Of a stretch of 40,102 bases of DNA, positions 7,831 to 19,184 are shown piece by piece (within the stretch, counting starts at the first letter, position 1; the number at the start of each line of letters is the position of its first letter). The DNA lies in IMG/VR virus record IMGVR_UViG_3300010400_000034, positions 1 to 40,102 of that record, one strand, 5' to 3'. The DNA is from a virus. Both the position numbers and the translations under genes were made by a program. The notes under the pieces were generated by a model. The model searched no databases and had not been told where the DNA came from. It saw only the letters and a list, made by a program, of their open reading frames with translations.

Positions 7831-8196
7831 GTGACGGCCAAAAAGCGTAAGGTGTCACCCAAAAGCCTCGCCAACTTGAAGCCGTTCAAGGCCGGAAATC
7901 CAGGGCGCCCGAAGGGAAGCCGCAATCTTCTCGACACGTCATTTGTCGAGGCGCTCTACGCAGATTTCCAAAAGCATGGCCCGTCTGCGATCGTCGACTG
8001 CCGCGAGACAAATTCGGCGGCCTACCTCAAAACGATTGCATCCATCCTGCCCAAGGACGTGAACGTTTCCGTAAACGCGTCAGAGACCTTTGAGCGACTA
8101 CTGAGAGCGATATCTGATGGCACTGCCGCTACTGCGGGAGACGTGGGAGAAGGCATACCTTCGGAGCCGGGACAACCCGTTACTGTTCGTCACTGA
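7831..8196 (+). CDS. terS: Terminase small subunit-like protein (DUF5681 type)
   Basis: 121 residues from a GTG at 7831. The N-terminus PFKAGNPGRPKGSRNLLDTS is the DUF5681 signature, followed by FVEALYADFQKHGPSAIVDC and AAYLKTIASILPKDVNV. In phages this protein lies directly before TerL and is taken as the small terminase that recognises pac/cos. The 3' end overlaps terL by 80 bases, which is longer than usual. Confidence 0.75.
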   Translation: MTAKKRKVSPKSLANLKPFKAGNPGRPKGSRNLLDTSFVEALYADFQKHGPSAIVDCRETNSAAYLKTIASILPKDVNVSVNASETFERLLRAISDGTAATAGDVGEGIPSEPGQPVTVRH

Positions 8197-9523
8197 TGTC
8201 CTCGGTGTCCAGCCCGAGGTGTGGCAGCGTGATGCGTTGTTGGCTGTTGCGGCAAAGAGCCGGGTTTCGATTCGGTCGGGCCATGGTGTCGGCAAGACCA
8301 CGTTCTTCGCCTGGCTGGTACTGTGGTTTTTGCTGACGCGGGACGACACTAAAATCCCGGTGACGGCAAATAGTCAGGACCAGCTACGGGATACGGTCTG
8401 GCCGGAGATTGCCAAGTGGTGGCGGCATCTCCCGCCGTTGCTCAAGGACCAAATCGAGGTACAGGCTGAGCGTGTCGTCAGGGTGGCGAGCCCGGAAAGC
8501 AATTTCGCCGTCCAGCGCACGGCATCGCGCCATAATCCAGAGGCTCTACAAGGCTTCCATGCCAAGCACCTTCTGTTCTTGGTGGATGAGGCTTCGGGCA
8601 TTGAAGACGTGGTTTTCGAGGTAGGTGCCGGTGCATTGTCGACTGAGGGCGCCAAGGCCGTCTTGGCCGGCAACCCAACGCGATCGAGCGGATTCTTCTT
8701 CGACACGCACAATCGCTTGCGGGACCGCTGGCATACCATGCGGGTCAACAGCGAGGACGTGCAGCGCGCACGAGGCCACATTGACGATATCATCGCTCGA
8801 TACGGCAAGGACTCGAATGCCTACCGCGTCAGGGTTTTGGGGGAGTTTCCGACTGCTGACGACGAAGCCGTTATCCCTCTTGAGTCGATACTTTCGGCTG
8901 TCAATCGCGGTGTTCATCCTCTTGGCTATCTGCCTGTGTGGGGTCTTGATGTGGCCCGTTTCGGCGATGATCGGACTGCTCTGGCGAAGCGTGAGTCAAA
9001 TTGTCTCATCGAACCGATTATCTGGTGGCACGGCCTCGACCTGATGCAGACGGTTGGACGAGTGCAGCAAATATACGAGCGCACACCAATACCACGGCGG
9101 CCGGCAGAGATACTGATTGATTCGGTCGGTATGGGTTCAGGCGTGCTTGATAGGGCACTGGAGATTGGTTTGCCTGCCCGTGGCGTCAACGTGGGTGAAG
9201 GCGCGGCATCTGCGGCCCATTATCAACGATTGCGCGATGAGCTTTGGTTTCAGGGCCGGGAATGGTTCGCCAGCAAGGACGTGAGCATTCCGGCTGGGTG
9301 TGATGACCTGATCAGTGAGTTGTCAGCGCCGCTCTACACCTTTTCATCGACGGGCAAAATCGTGGTCGAATCCAAGGACGAGCTCAAAAAGCGAGGGCTG
9401 CGCAGCCCAGACTTAGCTGACGCCTTCCTACTGACCTTCGCGGCCGGCATTCCGTCACGCTTCGACGATGACTATGACGACGACAGCCGCAACTACGGCC
9501 GATCGTCCGTCACGGGGTACTGA
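8117..9523 (+). CDS. terL: Terminase large subunit
   Basis: 468 residues. Walker A SGHGVGKT (54-61), Walker B LLFLVDEAS (152-160, D157/E158), coupling motif AGNPTRSSG (184-192). The RNase H-like nuclease has GLDVARFGDDR (D278), ILIDSVGMGSGV (D335) and SPDLADAF (D432/D435). It drives ATP-dependent DNA packaging and cuts the concatemer. All residues expected for activity are present. The length is normal. Confidence 0.95.
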   Translation: MALPLLRETWEKAYLRSRDNPLLFVTDVLGVQPEVWQRDALLAVAAKSRVSIRSGHGVGKTTFFAWLVLWFLLTRDDTKIPVTANSQDQLRDTVWPEIAKWWRHLPPLLKDQIEVQAERVVRVASPESNFAVQRTASRHNPEALQGFHAKHLLFLVDEASGIEDVVFEVGAGALSTEGAKAVLAGNPTRSSGFFFDTHNRLRDRWHTMRVNSEDVQRARGHIDDIIARYGKDSNAYRVRVLGEFPTADDEAVIPLESILSAVNRGVHPLGYLPVWGLDVARFGDDRTALAKRESNCLIEPIIWWHGLDLMQTVGRVQQIYERTPIPRRPAEILIDSVGMGSGVLDRALEIGLPARGVNVGEGAASAAHYQRLRDELWFQGREWFASKDVSIPAGCDDLISELSAPLYTFSSTGKIVVESKDELKKRGLRSPDLADAFLLTFAAGIPSRFDDDYDDDSRNYGRSSVTGY

Positions 9524-9751: not shown

Positions 9752-11944
9752 ATGGCCTACGACGCCTCGTCCATCGCCAAGTCTGGCCGGCGGACGCCCC
9801 CTCTTGCCTCTGTCCTGACGAAGCTGACGAATTACGTCGCATCGCAGAACATTGCCAAGGGCTTGACGGCCGAGCAACTCGAGAAAATAGGATACGACGT
9901 CGAGCGCGAATACAAGATCGACAAACAATCGCGTGAGGATTGGGAAAAGTCCGCGCTGAAGGCTATGGACGTGGCCTTGCAGGTCCGTCAGCCGAAGAAT
10001 TACCCATTCGAAGGCGCAGCCAACGTCAAATATCCGCTGGTCACGGTTGCTGCGCTGCAGTTCGGCGCCCGCGCTTATCCGGCCATCATCGACGGAAACC
10101 GTGTCGTTAAGTGCCAGGTCATTGGATCTGACGAAGGCCAGCCGAAAATCGATCCACAGACCGGCCAGCCTACCATGCAGATGGACCCGCAGACGGGTCA
10201 ACCGGTGCAGGGTCCGAACGGTCAGCCCGTCATTCAGTGGCAAGTGCCACCTGGGGCCAAGCGTGAGCGTGCAGACCGCATCAGCGAGCACATGAGTTAC
10301 CAACTCCTCAACGAGATGGAGGAGTGGGAGGAAGACACCGACGTTCTGCTGCACCACATCCCGATCGTCGGGTGTGCATTCCGCAAGGTCTGGCGCAGCG
10401 AGGAATTGGGCCGCAACAAGGCCGAGATGGTGCCGGCGGTCGATCTGGTCGTGAACCAGAAGACCAAGGCTTTGGCAACCACGCCACGCGTCACCCACTG
10501 CCTGACGTTCTACCAGCAGGAGATCGACGAGAAAGTCCTGGCCGGTATTTGGCTGGACATCGATCTGCCGCAACCGACCGACGCGGGTGAGGATAATGAC
10601 GCGCCGCACAAATTCATCGAGCAGCATCGATATCTCGATCTCGACGAAGACGGCTATCGCGAGCCGTATATCGTTACTGTGCACGAGGAATCGTGTAAGG
10701 TAGTCCGCATCGTCGCGAACTATCGAATGGAGGATGTGAAGTACGATGATAAGCGGGTCACGCGTATTCCGAAGGCTCAATATTTCGTCAAGTACTCGTT
10801 TATTCCTGATCCGCGAGGTGGATTTTACGACATCGGGTTTGGAAGGCTTTTGGAAAGCCTATCGGAGACCATCGACACAACCCTCAATCAGATGCTCGAC
10901 GCCGGTCATCTATCCGTCGCCGGAGGGGGGTTTATTGGATCAGGTGTACGCTTCAAGAAGGGAAAAGTTCAAGTCAGCCCCGGCAAGTATGAAGTCGTAA
11001 GCGTCACTGGGTCAATCAAAGATCAAATCCACGCGCACCAATTCCCCGAGCCATCGCCCGTCCTGTTCAATCTGCTCGGCATGATGATTGAGGCCGCCAA
11101 GGACATCACGGCGGTCAAGGATATCCTCACCGGCGACAGCGGCACGAAGGGTGTGCAGACCGCGACGACGACGCTGGCGCTCATCGAGCAAGGGCTGAAG
11201 GTATTCACGGCCATTTACAAACGCATTTACCGCGCACTCAAGGCTGAGTTCAAACTGCTCTACATGCTCAATGCGCAGTTCTTGGACGAAAAATCCTATT
11301 ACATGGTCATGGATACGCAGAAGGCCGTGTCCAGAGCCGACTACAATTCGAAAGACCATGACGTTGTGCCAGTCAGTGACCCGAAAATGGTCACCGACAT
11401 GCAAAGGGGCGCAAAGGCCCAGGTGCTCATGTCGCTGTCCGAGCACCCCGCGATCGGCCCGGTATTCAATCCTCGTGAAGTGGCAAAGGACGTTTGCGCA
11501 GCGACAGGGATTGAGAATGCCGAACGACTGATGAAGCCAGAGGTCAACGGACCGAGCCCGCAAGAACAGATAGCCATGCAAAACGCCTTGGCCGAGGTCG
11601 ACGAGAAGAAATCGAAGGCCGAGCTGAACCGCGCCAGCGCCACGGCGGCCGAGGCAAACGCGGCCAAGTCTCTTGTCGACGCGCAATTGGCTCCTGTTGC
11701 TGCGGCGCACAAGATGGAGCACGACAATGCTACGCTCGTGCACGGTGCGCGCAAGGATCATCACGGCATGATCATGGCTGAGAACTCGGCGGCTACCGCT
11801 GCGGCTGGGCATGACTTGAGCCTTGCCGGTCATATGCATGATCGCGCTGTAGCGGCGGACGATAGTCAGCAGCGTCGTGAGGAATCGGCAATTGCAGCGG
11901 CAACGGCTGCCCAAGACGCCGAAACCAAGTCCGAGGTCGAGTAA
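9752..11944 (+). CDS. Portal protein (P22-like)
   Basis: 730 residues, close to the 725 of P22 gp1. Typical portal blocks: NYPFEGAANVKYPLVTVAAL, HMSYQLLNEMEEWEEDTD, IVGCAFRKVW, GGFYDIGFGRLLESLSE and a long helical C-terminus rich in Ala. Around residues 133-161 there is an insertion with repeated DPQTGQP units. The dodecameric portal forms the DNA entry/exit channel at one head vertex and is the scaffold for TerL and the tail. Follows terL after a 228-base gap. Confidence 0.92.
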   Translation: MAYDASSIAKSGRRTPPLASVLTKLTNYVASQNIAKGLTAEQLEKIGYDVEREYKIDKQSREDWEKSALKAMDVALQVRQPKNYPFEGAANVKYPLVTVAALQFGARAYPAIIDGNRVVKCQVIGSDEGQPKIDPQTGQPTMQMDPQTGQPVQGPNGQPVIQWQVPPGAKRERADRISEHMSYQLLNEMEEWEEDTDVLLHHIPIVGCAFRKVWRSEELGRNKAEMVPAVDLVVNQKTKALATTPRVTHCLTFYQQEIDEKVLAGIWLDIDLPQPTDAGEDNDAPHKFIEQHRYLDLDEDGYREPYIVTVHEESCKVVRIVANYRMEDVKYDDKRVTRIPKAQYFVKYSFIPDPRGGFYDIGFGRLLESLSETIDTTLNQMLDAGHLSVAGGGFIGSGVRFKKGKVQVSPGKYEVVSVTGSIKDQIHAHQFPEPSPVLFNLLGMMIEAAKDITAVKDILTGDSGTKGVQTATTTLALIEQGLKVFTAIYKRIYRALKAEFKLLYMLNAQFLDEKSYYMVMDTQKAVSRADYNSKDHDVVPVSDPKMVTDMQRGAKAQVLMSLSEHPAIGPVFNPREVAKDVCAATGIENAERLMKPEVNGPSPQEQIAMQNALAEVDEKKSKAELNRASATAAEANAAKSLVDAQLAPVAAAHKMEHDNATLVHGARKDHHGMIMAENSAATAAAGHDLSLAGHMHDRAVAADDSQQRREESAIAAATAAQDAETKSEVE

Positions 11945-13617: not shown

Positions 13618-13871
13618 TTGAGCGCGAAGACTTCAACTCATGGCTGGACAATCCGATTACCGTCCATGTGTTCCGCGAGCTGAAAAAGGTAGCCGACAAA
13701 GCCAAAGAGAAATGGGTCACCGCGTCCTGGGATCAGGGCGAGACCGATCCTGTGTTGCTCGCCGATCTCCGAGCAAGAGCCGAGACAATAAACGATCTCA
13801 TCACAGTGAGTTACGAGGACATAGATGACAGCGGCAGTAGCGAAGCTAAAGACGCCACAAAAGGCGGCTGA
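13614..13871 (+). CDS. Hypothetical protein (85 aa)
   Basis: Starts MIEREDFNSWLDNPITVHVF; ATGA overlap with the gene before. Helical and acidic, similar in size and order to small proteins before the head genes in related podophages. Its last 47 bases overlap the GroES-like gene in another frame. Confidence 0.7.
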   Translation: MIEREDFNSWLDNPITVHVFRELKKVADKAKEKWVTASWDQGETDPVLLADLRARAETINDLITVSYEDIDDSGSSEAKDATKGG

Positions 13872-14181
13872 TAATCCAAGCGGCATTATGCCGACCGAGT
13901 ATAAAATATTGGTTGCGCCAAAGCTGACGGCCAACAAGACGGCCGGCGGGATCATCCTCCCCGACGACACCAAAGAACGCGACCAACACGCCCAGATGGA
14001 GGGCACGATTGTTGCCGTATCTCCGTTGGCGTTCTCTTATGACAACTGGAAAGACGCGAGTCCGCCGAAAGTAGGGGACCGCATCCTATTTGCCAAATAC
14101 AGCGGGGCCGTAGTCAAGGGCCGCGATGGTGTCGACTATCGTATTATCAACGACAAGGATTGCGCTGCGGTTCTCACATGA
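13825..14181 (+). CDS. groES: GroES-like co-chaperonin
   Basis: 118 residues. Family features in order: PTEYKILVAPKLTANKTAGG (start of the beta-barrel and base of the mobile loop), IILPDDTKERDQHAQMEGTI (mobile loop region and beginning of the next strand), VGDRILFAKYSGAVVKGRDG and DYRIINDKDCAAVL at the C-terminus. Compared with host GroES it has a roughly 20-residue N-terminal extension and an insertion (SPLAFSYDNWKDAS). By analogy with T4 gp31 it may replace the host lid on GroEL for capsid folding. It lies directly before scaffold and capsid. Confidence 0.9.
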   Translation: MTAAVAKLKTPQKAADNPSGIMPTEYKILVAPKLTANKTAGGIILPDDTKERDQHAQMEGTIVAVSPLAFSYDNWKDASPPKVGDRILFAKYSGAVVKGRDGVDYRIINDKDCAAVLT

Positions 14182-17202: not shown

Positions 17203-18946
17203 ATGGCTGGAGTTATTGGTACCGGGAATCATCCCAAAGCCTTATGGCCTTTGCATTAAGGGCCTCGTTGTAGTAATATAACGAGATAACGCATTTAACT
17301 GCTGGAAACTCCCGCCGGGACAATCAGCAGCCAAGGCAGCAATGACCAAACTGATCATCTACTCAATCCTGAATCTGAAAAACGGCAAACGGTACATTGG
17401 CCAGACGTGCCAAGGTCTCGCCCGCCGCAAGGGTGAGCATATGCATCGGTTTAACCTTGGTGAAAGGGACCACAAGTTATATCAGGCGATGCGCAAACAC
17501 GGCGTGAAGAATTTCAAGTTTGAGGTTCTGTGCAGCGTCCTGAAGCCGGAATATCTTGATCAGATGGAAGTGCACTTCATTGAGGAGTACAATTCTTTCC
17601 ATCGCGGCTACAATATGACTTGTGGTGGTGAGACTGCATCGCAGGAGACTAGGCAAAAAATCAGCGCGGCCCTTACCGGCCGCAAAATTTTATGGGCTGA
17701 CAAATTGTGGCTTACTCGCCGCAACAACCCGGATGCCAAGCAGCCAAAGGACTACGTTGCGAAGGGTGCTAACAACACCCAAGCAAAGTCTTATTTGGTC
17801 CGTCTTCCCGACGGCGAAGAACGCCGCGTGAAGGGACTCAATCAGTTCTGCAAAGAGAACGGGTTGAGTTTTCCGCTCATGCTGGCGACGCTCAAGGGCG
17901 TGCAGACTCATCACAAGGGACACTTATTGCTCGCAAGGTTCAACGACTAGAGCTTCGGCTCGTACACCCAAGCGGGTGGAAATGGTGCGGGTCCTGTTTT
18001 CCCGACAGGATCAAGATATAGCCTAATCTGCATGGCAACATGCAGCGGCCGGAAACGGCGGGCGCGGAGTAGCGAACCGCGTTGAATATAAATGGGAATG
18101 CATGCCTTCTTCGGGGCTACCTACAAGGAGCACCCGGAGGAATACTCGGACATCTTCGACGTGGATACATCGTCGAAGAATTACGAGGAAGACACCAAGA
18201 TCACAGGCTTTGGCCTGGCACCAATGAAGACCGAGGGCGGTTCGGTTGAGTACGATACCGAATCCCAGGGCTTCACCAAGCGCTACACGCACAACGTCTA
18301 TGGCCTTGGTTATCAGGTCACCGAGGAAGAACAGGAAGACGGTCAATACGAGATCGTTAGCAAGCGTCGCATCAAGCGCCTAGCGTTCTCTATGCGTCAG
18401 ACCGTCGAGACCGTCGCGGCGAACGTGCTCAACCGCGGCTACACCTCCGGCTATACTGGCGGCGACGGGTCGATCCTGTTCGCCACCACGCATTCGTCGA
18501 TCAATGGCAACTATGCCAACATGATCACGGCTGCGGACTTCAGCGAGGCTGCCCTTGAAGACATGTGCGTTCTGATCGGGCAGGCCAAGAACGATCGCGG
18601 CCTGCCCATCGGACTGCGCCCAATGAAGCTGATTTACCCGGTCAATATCCAGTTCGATGTTGCTCGGGTACTCAAGAGCGAACTAACCCCAGGCACGACC
18701 AACAATGCCGTGAATGCGGTGCGCCTCGTCGGCGTCAAGCCGGTCATGAACCACTACCTGAGCGACACTGATGCATGGTTCGTCAAGACCGACTGCCCGA
18801 ACGGGCTGACCTTCTTCAATCGTCGTGAGATGAAATTCGCTCAAGACAATGATCACGATACTGGGAACGCCAAGGCCAAGGTCACGCGGCGCTTCTCGGT
18901 CGGTTGGACAGACCCGTTAGGTTGCTTCGGCAGCGCGGGGGCTTAG
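17203..18946 (+). CDS. Major capsid protein, split by a group I intron: exons 17203-17250 and 18095-18946
   Basis: Exon 1 has AAAGGAG before the ATG and encodes MAGVIGTGNHPKALWP; without splicing the frame stops after Leu-His. Exon 2 starts with GGA (Gly) and continues MHAFFGATYKEHPEEYSDIF. The joined product is 299 residues. The joint KALWP-G reproduces the KALWPG sequence that I recall from uninterrupted homologues in podophage capsids, where it is followed by an aromatic-Gly motif, like the FFG here. Further family blocks: DTESQGFTKRYTHNVYGLGY, RRIKRLAFSMRQTVETVAAN, NDRGLPIGLRPMKLIYPVNI, VMNHYLSDTDAWFVKTD. An internal ATG at 18092 belongs to the intron end and is not the true start. Confidence 0.88.
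17251..18094 (+). ncRNA. Group I self-splicing intron
   Basis: 844 nt. P1: exon end GGCCU pairs with the internal guide GGGCC (17260-17264) with the required U-G pair at the 5' splice site. P10: UGCAUU (17252-17257) can pair with AAUGCA of exon 2 (18097-18102). Core: P-like AACTGCTGGAAACTC (17297-17311) and Q-like AATCAGCAGCC (17322-17332) share the GCTG/CAGC pairing; R-like GTTCAACGACTAGA (17938-17951); S-like AAGATATAGCC (18013-18023). Last base G (18094). P7 pairing between R and S has one A-C mismatch. The endonuclease lies between Q and R. Confidence 0.85.
17342..17950 (+). CDS. GIY-YIG homing endonuclease, intron-encoded
   Basis: 202 residues. GIY-YIG domain about residues 5-95: IIYSILNLKNGKRYIGQTCQ (the GIY motif is IYS here), catalytic Arg in LARRKGEHM (R28 or R29), the conserved Glu in YLDQMEVHFIEEYNS (E76) and RGYNMTCGGE. 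Residues 101-114 (ETRQKISAALTGRK) match a NUMOD3 DNA-binding module. The C-terminus binds the homing site by analogy. Its stop codon TAG lies inside the intron R element, so coding and ribozyme sequence overlap, as in T4 introns. It would cleave intronless capsid alleles and spread the intron. Confidence 0.9.
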   Translation: MTKLIIYSILNLKNGKRYIGQTCQGLARRKGEHMHRFNLGERDHKLYQAMRKHGVKNFKFEVLCSVLKPEYLDQMEVHFIEEYNSFHRGYNMTCGGETASQETRQKISAALTGRKILWADKLWLTRRNNPDAKQPKDYVAKGANNTQAKSYLVRLPDGEERRVKGLNQFCKENGLSFPLMLATLKGVQTHHKGHLLLARFND

Positions 18947-18997
18947 TAACAGAGTTTCAGTCGGCGGCGTGGAAAGCAGACACGCAATCTAAATGGC

Positions 18998-19113
18998 GGC
19001 GCTGTGGTGGCGCCCAAGTGGCGACGATGGTCCCCGTGACTAGGCCACGGCCTGCCAACCTCACCAGGGTTGGCTTGCAGAAGGGGGCCAGCCGGAGTAG
19101 CGACCGGCCCGAC
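18998..19113 (+). ncRNA. Structured leader after the capsid gene
   Basis: 18947-19184 has no convincing gene. It contains GCCAACC-(7)-GGTTGGC (19054-19074) and GCCGG-AGTAGCGA-CCGGC (19091-19108). The second loop is the same as in a hairpin near the intron 3' end (CGCGG-AGTAGCGAA-CCGCG, 18063-18081), although the stems differ. It lacks a U-tract, so it is not an obvious terminator. Confidence 0.4.
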
Positions 19114-19184
19114 TGAATTCATCCATCACCTCACCTTCGGAAATCCACAACTGGCCCTCACGGGTCGAAGCGGAGGCTTCACAA

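Follow-up and report, generated by a model that had tools for sequence, protein, structure and literature searches.

Organization of the locus

The window analysed here is the whole 40,102-base metagenomic virus contig IMGVR_UViG_3300010400_000034 of IMG/VR, and all positions refer to it. Pfam and PHROG family searches place a terminase gene, a portal gene, and a major capsid gene in this order (Table 1). Between the portal gene and the capsid gene is a gene for a Cpn10 (GroES-like) co-chaperonin (positions 13825 to 14181, plus strand; PF00166, 7.1e-15). The capsid gene is divided into two exons, the first preceded by a Shine-Dalgarno-like AAAGGAG. An earlier reading made from the letters of the window (the sequence-only reading) had placed the capsid start and first 16 codons 844 nt upstream of the remainder, and all of its coordinates hold. 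Joining of CCT (ending at 17250) to GGA (from 18095) yields a protein of 299 amino acids that matches the PHROG 371 major head protein (8.2e-14), and exon 2 matches Phage_capsid_4 (PF25209, 2.9e-10) and Mu-like_gpT (PF10124, 1.5e-06); both the sequence family and the place after the terminase and portal genes identify a gpT-like major capsid protein. Without splicing, the sole long capsid ORF is 18092 to 18946, opening with ATG at 18092 and encoding 284 amino acids, which is the truncated call that had been predicted for annotation pipelines.

Table 1. Genes, exons, and RNA elements of the capsid region in the window
Feature	Positions	Strand	Basis or remark
Terminase gene	8117-9523		PHROG 2; upstream of capsid gene
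Portal gene	9752-11944		PHROG 1216; upstream of capsid gene
Major capsid gene exon 1, codons 1-16 (MAGVIGTGNHPKALWP)	17203-17250	+	Aligns with codons 1-16 of uninterrupted L003-L020
P1, GGCCU/GGGCC with U-G splice pair	17246-17264 (17246-17250/17260-17264)	+	
Group I intron, IA type, 844 nt, phase 0, last base G	17251-18094	+	RF00028, covariation, R1, empty site
P10 guide strand UGCAUU	17252-17257	+	Pairs with exon 2 AAUGCA, 18097-18102 (6 bp)
P2 hairpin	17265-17284	+	8/8 pairs changed on both sides in family; absent in L036
P3 5' strand; P6 5' strand	17290-17295; 17330-17332	+	Six-core alignment
P4; P5	17300-17305/17324-17329; 17310-17313/17317-17320	+	Six-core alignment
GIY-YIG homing endonuclease ORF, 202 aa, in P6 loop	17342-17950	+	PF01541, 2.2e-07
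P6 3' strand	17937-17939	+	Six-core alignment
P7 5' strand GACUA (R element)	17945-17949	+	Six-core alignment
P7.1	17950-17961	+	4/4 pairs with double-sided changes
P7.2	17965-17978	+	3/5 pairs with double-sided changes
P3 3' strand; P8	17984-17989; 17990-18012	+	Six-core alignment
P7 3' strand UAGCC (S element)	18019-18023	+	Holds A17946-C18022 mismatch
P9; P9.1	18028-18045; 18048-18059	+	Six-core alignment
P9.2 with GUAGCGA loop	18061-18083	+	Six-core alignment
Major capsid gene exon 2, codons 17-299 and stop	18095-18946	+	Phage_capsid_4 and Mu-like_gpT matches

The empty site is preserved in 18 viral contigs (L003 to L020) whose capsid genes are uninterrupted and whose products are 60 to 71% identical to the joined protein. 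In an alignment that had been proposed as a check, all 18 of these homologues, which come from uncultured viruses, are continuous over the junction as (K)ALWPGMHAFF, encoded for instance by TGGCCT/GGGATGCATGC (the slash marks the junction). Removal of the insert from the window restores KALWP/GMHAFFG, that is, KALWPG followed by the aromatic-Gly motif, as had been expected of splicing.

Overall structure of the group I intron

The insert, which splits the gpT-like capsid gene after codon 16, belongs to the IA type of group I introns. Five homologous introns were found through their endonucleases in other viral contigs (L021, L022, L024, L032, and L036), with L023 as a near copy of L022; a sixth relative, L158, is damaged at its 5' end, where P1 has been lost or misassembled. 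The alignment of the six cores comprises 73 pairs in 13 helices (P1 to P9.2, with P3 and P7 forming the pseudoknot), and 95.3% of the pair cells are formed, compared with 77.6% in shuffled alignments and 36 to 41% when the partners are slid by 1 to 3 columns. Double-sided changes among the six introns occur in 40 of the 73 pairs and in 81 cells (shuffled means, 21 and 28), counts that none of 500 shuffles reached. P7.1 and P7.2, paired in 100% of their cells in the six introns, lie between P7 and the 3' strand of P3 and are a hallmark of subgroup IA, to which the intron is therefore assigned. The group I interpretation and the P/Q/R/S-like core put forward from the sequence are thus supported by a full fold, by covariation, and by alignment to RF00028.

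The RF00028 search that had been suggested aligned the model end to end over 17241 to 18045 (39.8 bits, E value of 4e-8 in a 2.4-kb search), but the score, which required a permissive search, is below the gathering score of 50 bits. We attribute this to the long inserted ORF; as a consequence, the intron is missed at the default threshold of Rfam, which at its gathering cutoff gave no match in the window. R1, a covariance model for the 3' core built from six intron sequences including that of the window, scores 169.6 bits against the window, one of its own sources. Group II introns and inteins were also considered and rejected; the former would have a domain V with RT and the latter a splicing protein frame running through the insert, but Rfam and Pfam gave no such match, and the insert contains stops in the capsid frame.

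P1 with its U-G splice pair, the 6-bp P10, and the terminal G were each found where they had been claimed, the P10 partner beginning two bases into exon 2. In all six intact introns, P1 places a U-G pair at the 5' splice site and the last intron base is G. Since P10 measures only 3 to 5 bp in the other introns, it carries little weight outside the window. In each of the six, an in-frame stop falls between 1 base before and 6 bases after the 5' splice site; that of the window is a UAA in the P1 loop (17257 to 17259), six bases past the splice site. A stop near this site keeps ribosomes off the ribozyme in other group I introns (PMC3073962).

The endonuclease in the P6 loop

The ORF in the P6 loop had been read as a GIY-YIG endonuclease, and this identity is borne out by its Pfam match (PF01541, 2.2e-07) together with a match of the endonuclease family profile to the homologous I-TevI structures 1MK0 and 1LN0 (2.5e-09). 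It also matches the PHROG 314 homing endonuclease (1.6e-27), and residues Y7, Y18, R29, E76, and N91 are invariant across the family. The C-terminal part resembles the C-terminal DNA-binding region of I-HmuI (1U3E), and two family members yield a Pfam I-HmuI_NUMOD-like match. A Shine-Dalgarno-like AAGG is located just upstream of the ORF, beside P6, while its 3' end overlaps P6', J6/7, and P7; the last sense codon GAC and the stop UAG share bases with the P7 5' strand, which confirms that the stop codon lies in the R element. The window, L021, L022, L032, and L158 have an intact ORF; the ORF is broken by an internal deletion in L024 and by a frameshift in L036, both of which have intact ribozyme cores. 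These breaks represent either decay of the kind usual in homing genes or errors of assembly. A search of genome contigs found no relatives of the endonuclease.

Related introns and their insertion points

All introns of the family reside within one short stretch of divergent capsid genes (43 to 65% pairwise protein identity), and removing each of the five homologous introns gives an in-frame capsid of 298 to 305 amino acids. Relative to the window, the insertion point, as read from the codons on either side, is at 0 in L021, L024, and L032, at +5 in L022 (GGCGT/AAAT), and at +13 in L036 (AAAGCGT/GGTT), and P1 is re-matched at each point. The 3' end of L158 is that of the +13 site, where this intron is probably inserted. 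The endonuclease tree unites L022 with L032 (95/95), indicating that the two shifted introns are not sisters. We somewhat favor a single lineage, specialized on the KALWPG codons, that would have slid to +5 (L022 and L023) and to +13 (L036 and probably L158), at least twice in all, re-matching P1 and P10 each time while the related endonuclease kept its target in that stretch, a case of intron sliding with guide retargeting; the alternative is that the +5 and +13 positions record separate invasions by related introns.

Several searches delimit the family. A search with the window's exact P4-P5 core pattern matched no other viral contig, and a P1-based pattern search returned only the already known L032 contig. 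Other GIY-YIG relatives (L025 to L030 and L037 to L039) were not accepted as intron members, as they have no R1 match; L025, L027 to L030, and L037 to L039 also have no RF00028 match.

Proposed spread by homing

The locus is explained best by a mobile self-splicing group IA intron in a gpT-like capsid gene, a reading in which we have high confidence. In the proposed mechanism, the guide in the pre-mRNA would form P1 with the exon 1 sequence GGCCU and P10 with the exon 2 sequence AAUGCA, guanosine bound in P7 would attack after U17250, and the exons would be joined as CCU/GGA so that the 299-residue capsid protein is made. Ribosomes on exon 1 would halt at the UAA six bases past the splice site, which is proposed to keep the ribozyme free of them. 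The I-TevI-like endonuclease would cleave, around the conserved KALWPG codons, those capsid alleles of co-infecting phages that lack the intron, and repair of the cut allele would copy the intron in. We infer from sequence that the window copy splices, that its endonuclease cuts at the site, and that homing lies behind the scattered distribution.

On a tree of 85 capsids, the presence of the intron is scattered and requires at least four changes, although with only six to seven introns the phylogenetic resolution is low and gains are indistinguishable from losses. The nearest relatives of the window on this tree are intronless (L012 is the closest), and the two components of the element disagree in their affinities, the window capsid being nearer to those of L024 and L036 and the endonuclease nearest to that of L032. 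In all six introns examined, G+C is 4.8 to 13 points below that of exon 2. The tree and the G+C pattern fit homing between phages, and the scatter, the discordance, and the lower G+C of the introns all speak against an intron that was inherited vertically and lost in many lineages without active homing. We regard such a history as unlikely; it would agree with the location of all introns in the same gene region, with the inability of the tree to separate gains from losses, and with the two degenerate endonuclease genes (the L024 deletion and the L036 frameshift).

Whether the window copy splices

The sequence-only reading was right that the core elements are readable, but it missed an A17946-C18022 mismatch in P7, at a pair that is A-U in the six other introns. 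The mismatched pair adjoins the guanosine-binding pair of group I introns, and a protonated A-C pair can mimic G-U. The A-C may be tolerated as a wobble-like pair, may make splicing weaker, or may stem from an error in the sequence, since in a metagenomic contig both a single-base error and a weakened allele are possible. Because P7 carries this A-C, we infer, rather than assert, that the window copy splices. It is improbable that the element, though a group I intron in ancestry, no longer splices in the window, the capsid, if made, coming from the internal start at 18092. The position of the A-C, unique to the window among seven introns, and the 284-residue ORF opened by the ATG at 18092 agree with a nonsplicing copy, yet all remaining helices and the endonuclease ORF are intact, exon 1 retains its conserved codons and ribosome site, and no Shine-Dalgarno-like sequence precedes 18092. 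In addition, the capsid is encoded by an essential gene, the N-terminal KALWPG segment is present in all homologues read, and the A-C, when protonated, can stand in for G-U. We give almost no credence to a free-standing homing endonuclease gene without a ribozyme, with two capsid fragments that assemble or a phage that is dead, for although GIY-YIG genes often stand free beside structural genes (PMC10448857, on phage endonucleases generally), a full, covarying group IA fold flanks the ORF on both sides and P1 and P10 fit every host site, shifted sites included.

Comparison with known introns

The self-splicing, mobile intron that we favor has counterparts in characterized phages. The capsid gene had been singled out as a notable host; it is unusual but not unprecedented, as shown by the capsid introns of mycobacteriophage LittleE, where splicing was established by RT-PCR and N-terminal protein sequencing (PMC3706429), and of Tuc2009, as cited in the LittleE paper (PMC3706429). 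Like the window intron, that of LittleE (group I-like, about 820 bp) interrupts the major capsid gene of a phage and contains an endonuclease ORF, whereas its endonuclease is LAGLIDADG related and encoded on the opposite strand, its capsid is HK97-like, and its insertion site is another one (PMC3706429). I-TevI of the T4 td intron has a homologous GIY-YIG domain, and its ORF also occupies the P6 loop with the 3' end in P7 (PMC3073962); the window endonuclease differs in its I-HmuI-like C-terminal DNA-binding part and in its capsid gene target.

In the 3' core, R1 matches the RNA polymerase beta intron of Pseudomonas phage 201phi2-1 (122.8 bits) and the nrdB intron of the T4-like phage HY03 (119.1 bits), and the P9-P9.2 region is also present in the 201phi2-1 and T4-like nrdB introns. 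The HY03 intron shares the 3' core, P7.1/P7.2, and the P9.2 GUAGCGA hairpin with the window but is hosted by a ribonucleotide reductase gene and carries a different (I-TevIII-type) endonuclease ORF. The 201phi2-1 intron, by contrast, interrupts a transcription gene and has no capsid target; by annotation, its host protein is the joined product, with identification by mass spectrometry.

Phage capsid genes are thus already known to harbor group I introns, and the gpT-like capsid family is new as a host. Also new is an intron family that recurs in the KALWPG codons, inserting at 0, +5, or +13 nt with its guides re-matched. With its empty site, three insertion points, and intact and decayed endonucleases, it provides a natural series for homing-site change. 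Few phage genes are expressed as strongly as this one, in which a homing element is tolerated and splicing must be efficient. Annotation pipelines record a truncated capsid and overlook the intron, so that viral marker-gene surveys mishandle such capsid genes.

A structured RNA downstream of the capsid gene

A structured RNA element that is unrelated to the intron and absent from Rfam occupies positions 18952 to 19121 (plus strand), just 3' of the capsid stop. It consists of an outer stem (TCAGTCGG/CCGACTGA) and, within it, a hairpin (GCGUGGAAAGCAGACACGC), a variable middle, and a second hairpin (GCCGGAGUAGCGACCGGC). The design is shared by Pseudomonas phages PotUPM1 and Persinger and Ochrobactrum phage POI1126, in part by Orimi01, and by 33 IMG/VR contigs; the copies are mostly intergenic with varied neighboring genes. 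The outer stem is paired in 239 of 256 cells across 32 distinct copies (shuffled mean, 133; maximum, 162). Rfam 15 gave no match at these sites, and a literature search for the sequence found no paper carrying it; judged from sequence comparison, the element looks like an undescribed covarying phage RNA family.

The repeat CGGAGTAGCGA at 18065 and 19093 had suggested a second, decayed intron 3' of the capsid gene, a candidate that was rejected because R1 matches only a short hairpin there (3.3 bits) and Rfam gives no match. A stem-GUAGCGA-stem motif is common to P9.2 of the intron and the downstream RNA (19091 to 19108), possibly as a common RNA building block or by coincidence. In two capsid relatives, L010 and L011, the capsid stop is followed by a different sequence, with an ORF that by eye resembles a zinc-ribbon/HNH-type endonuclease.
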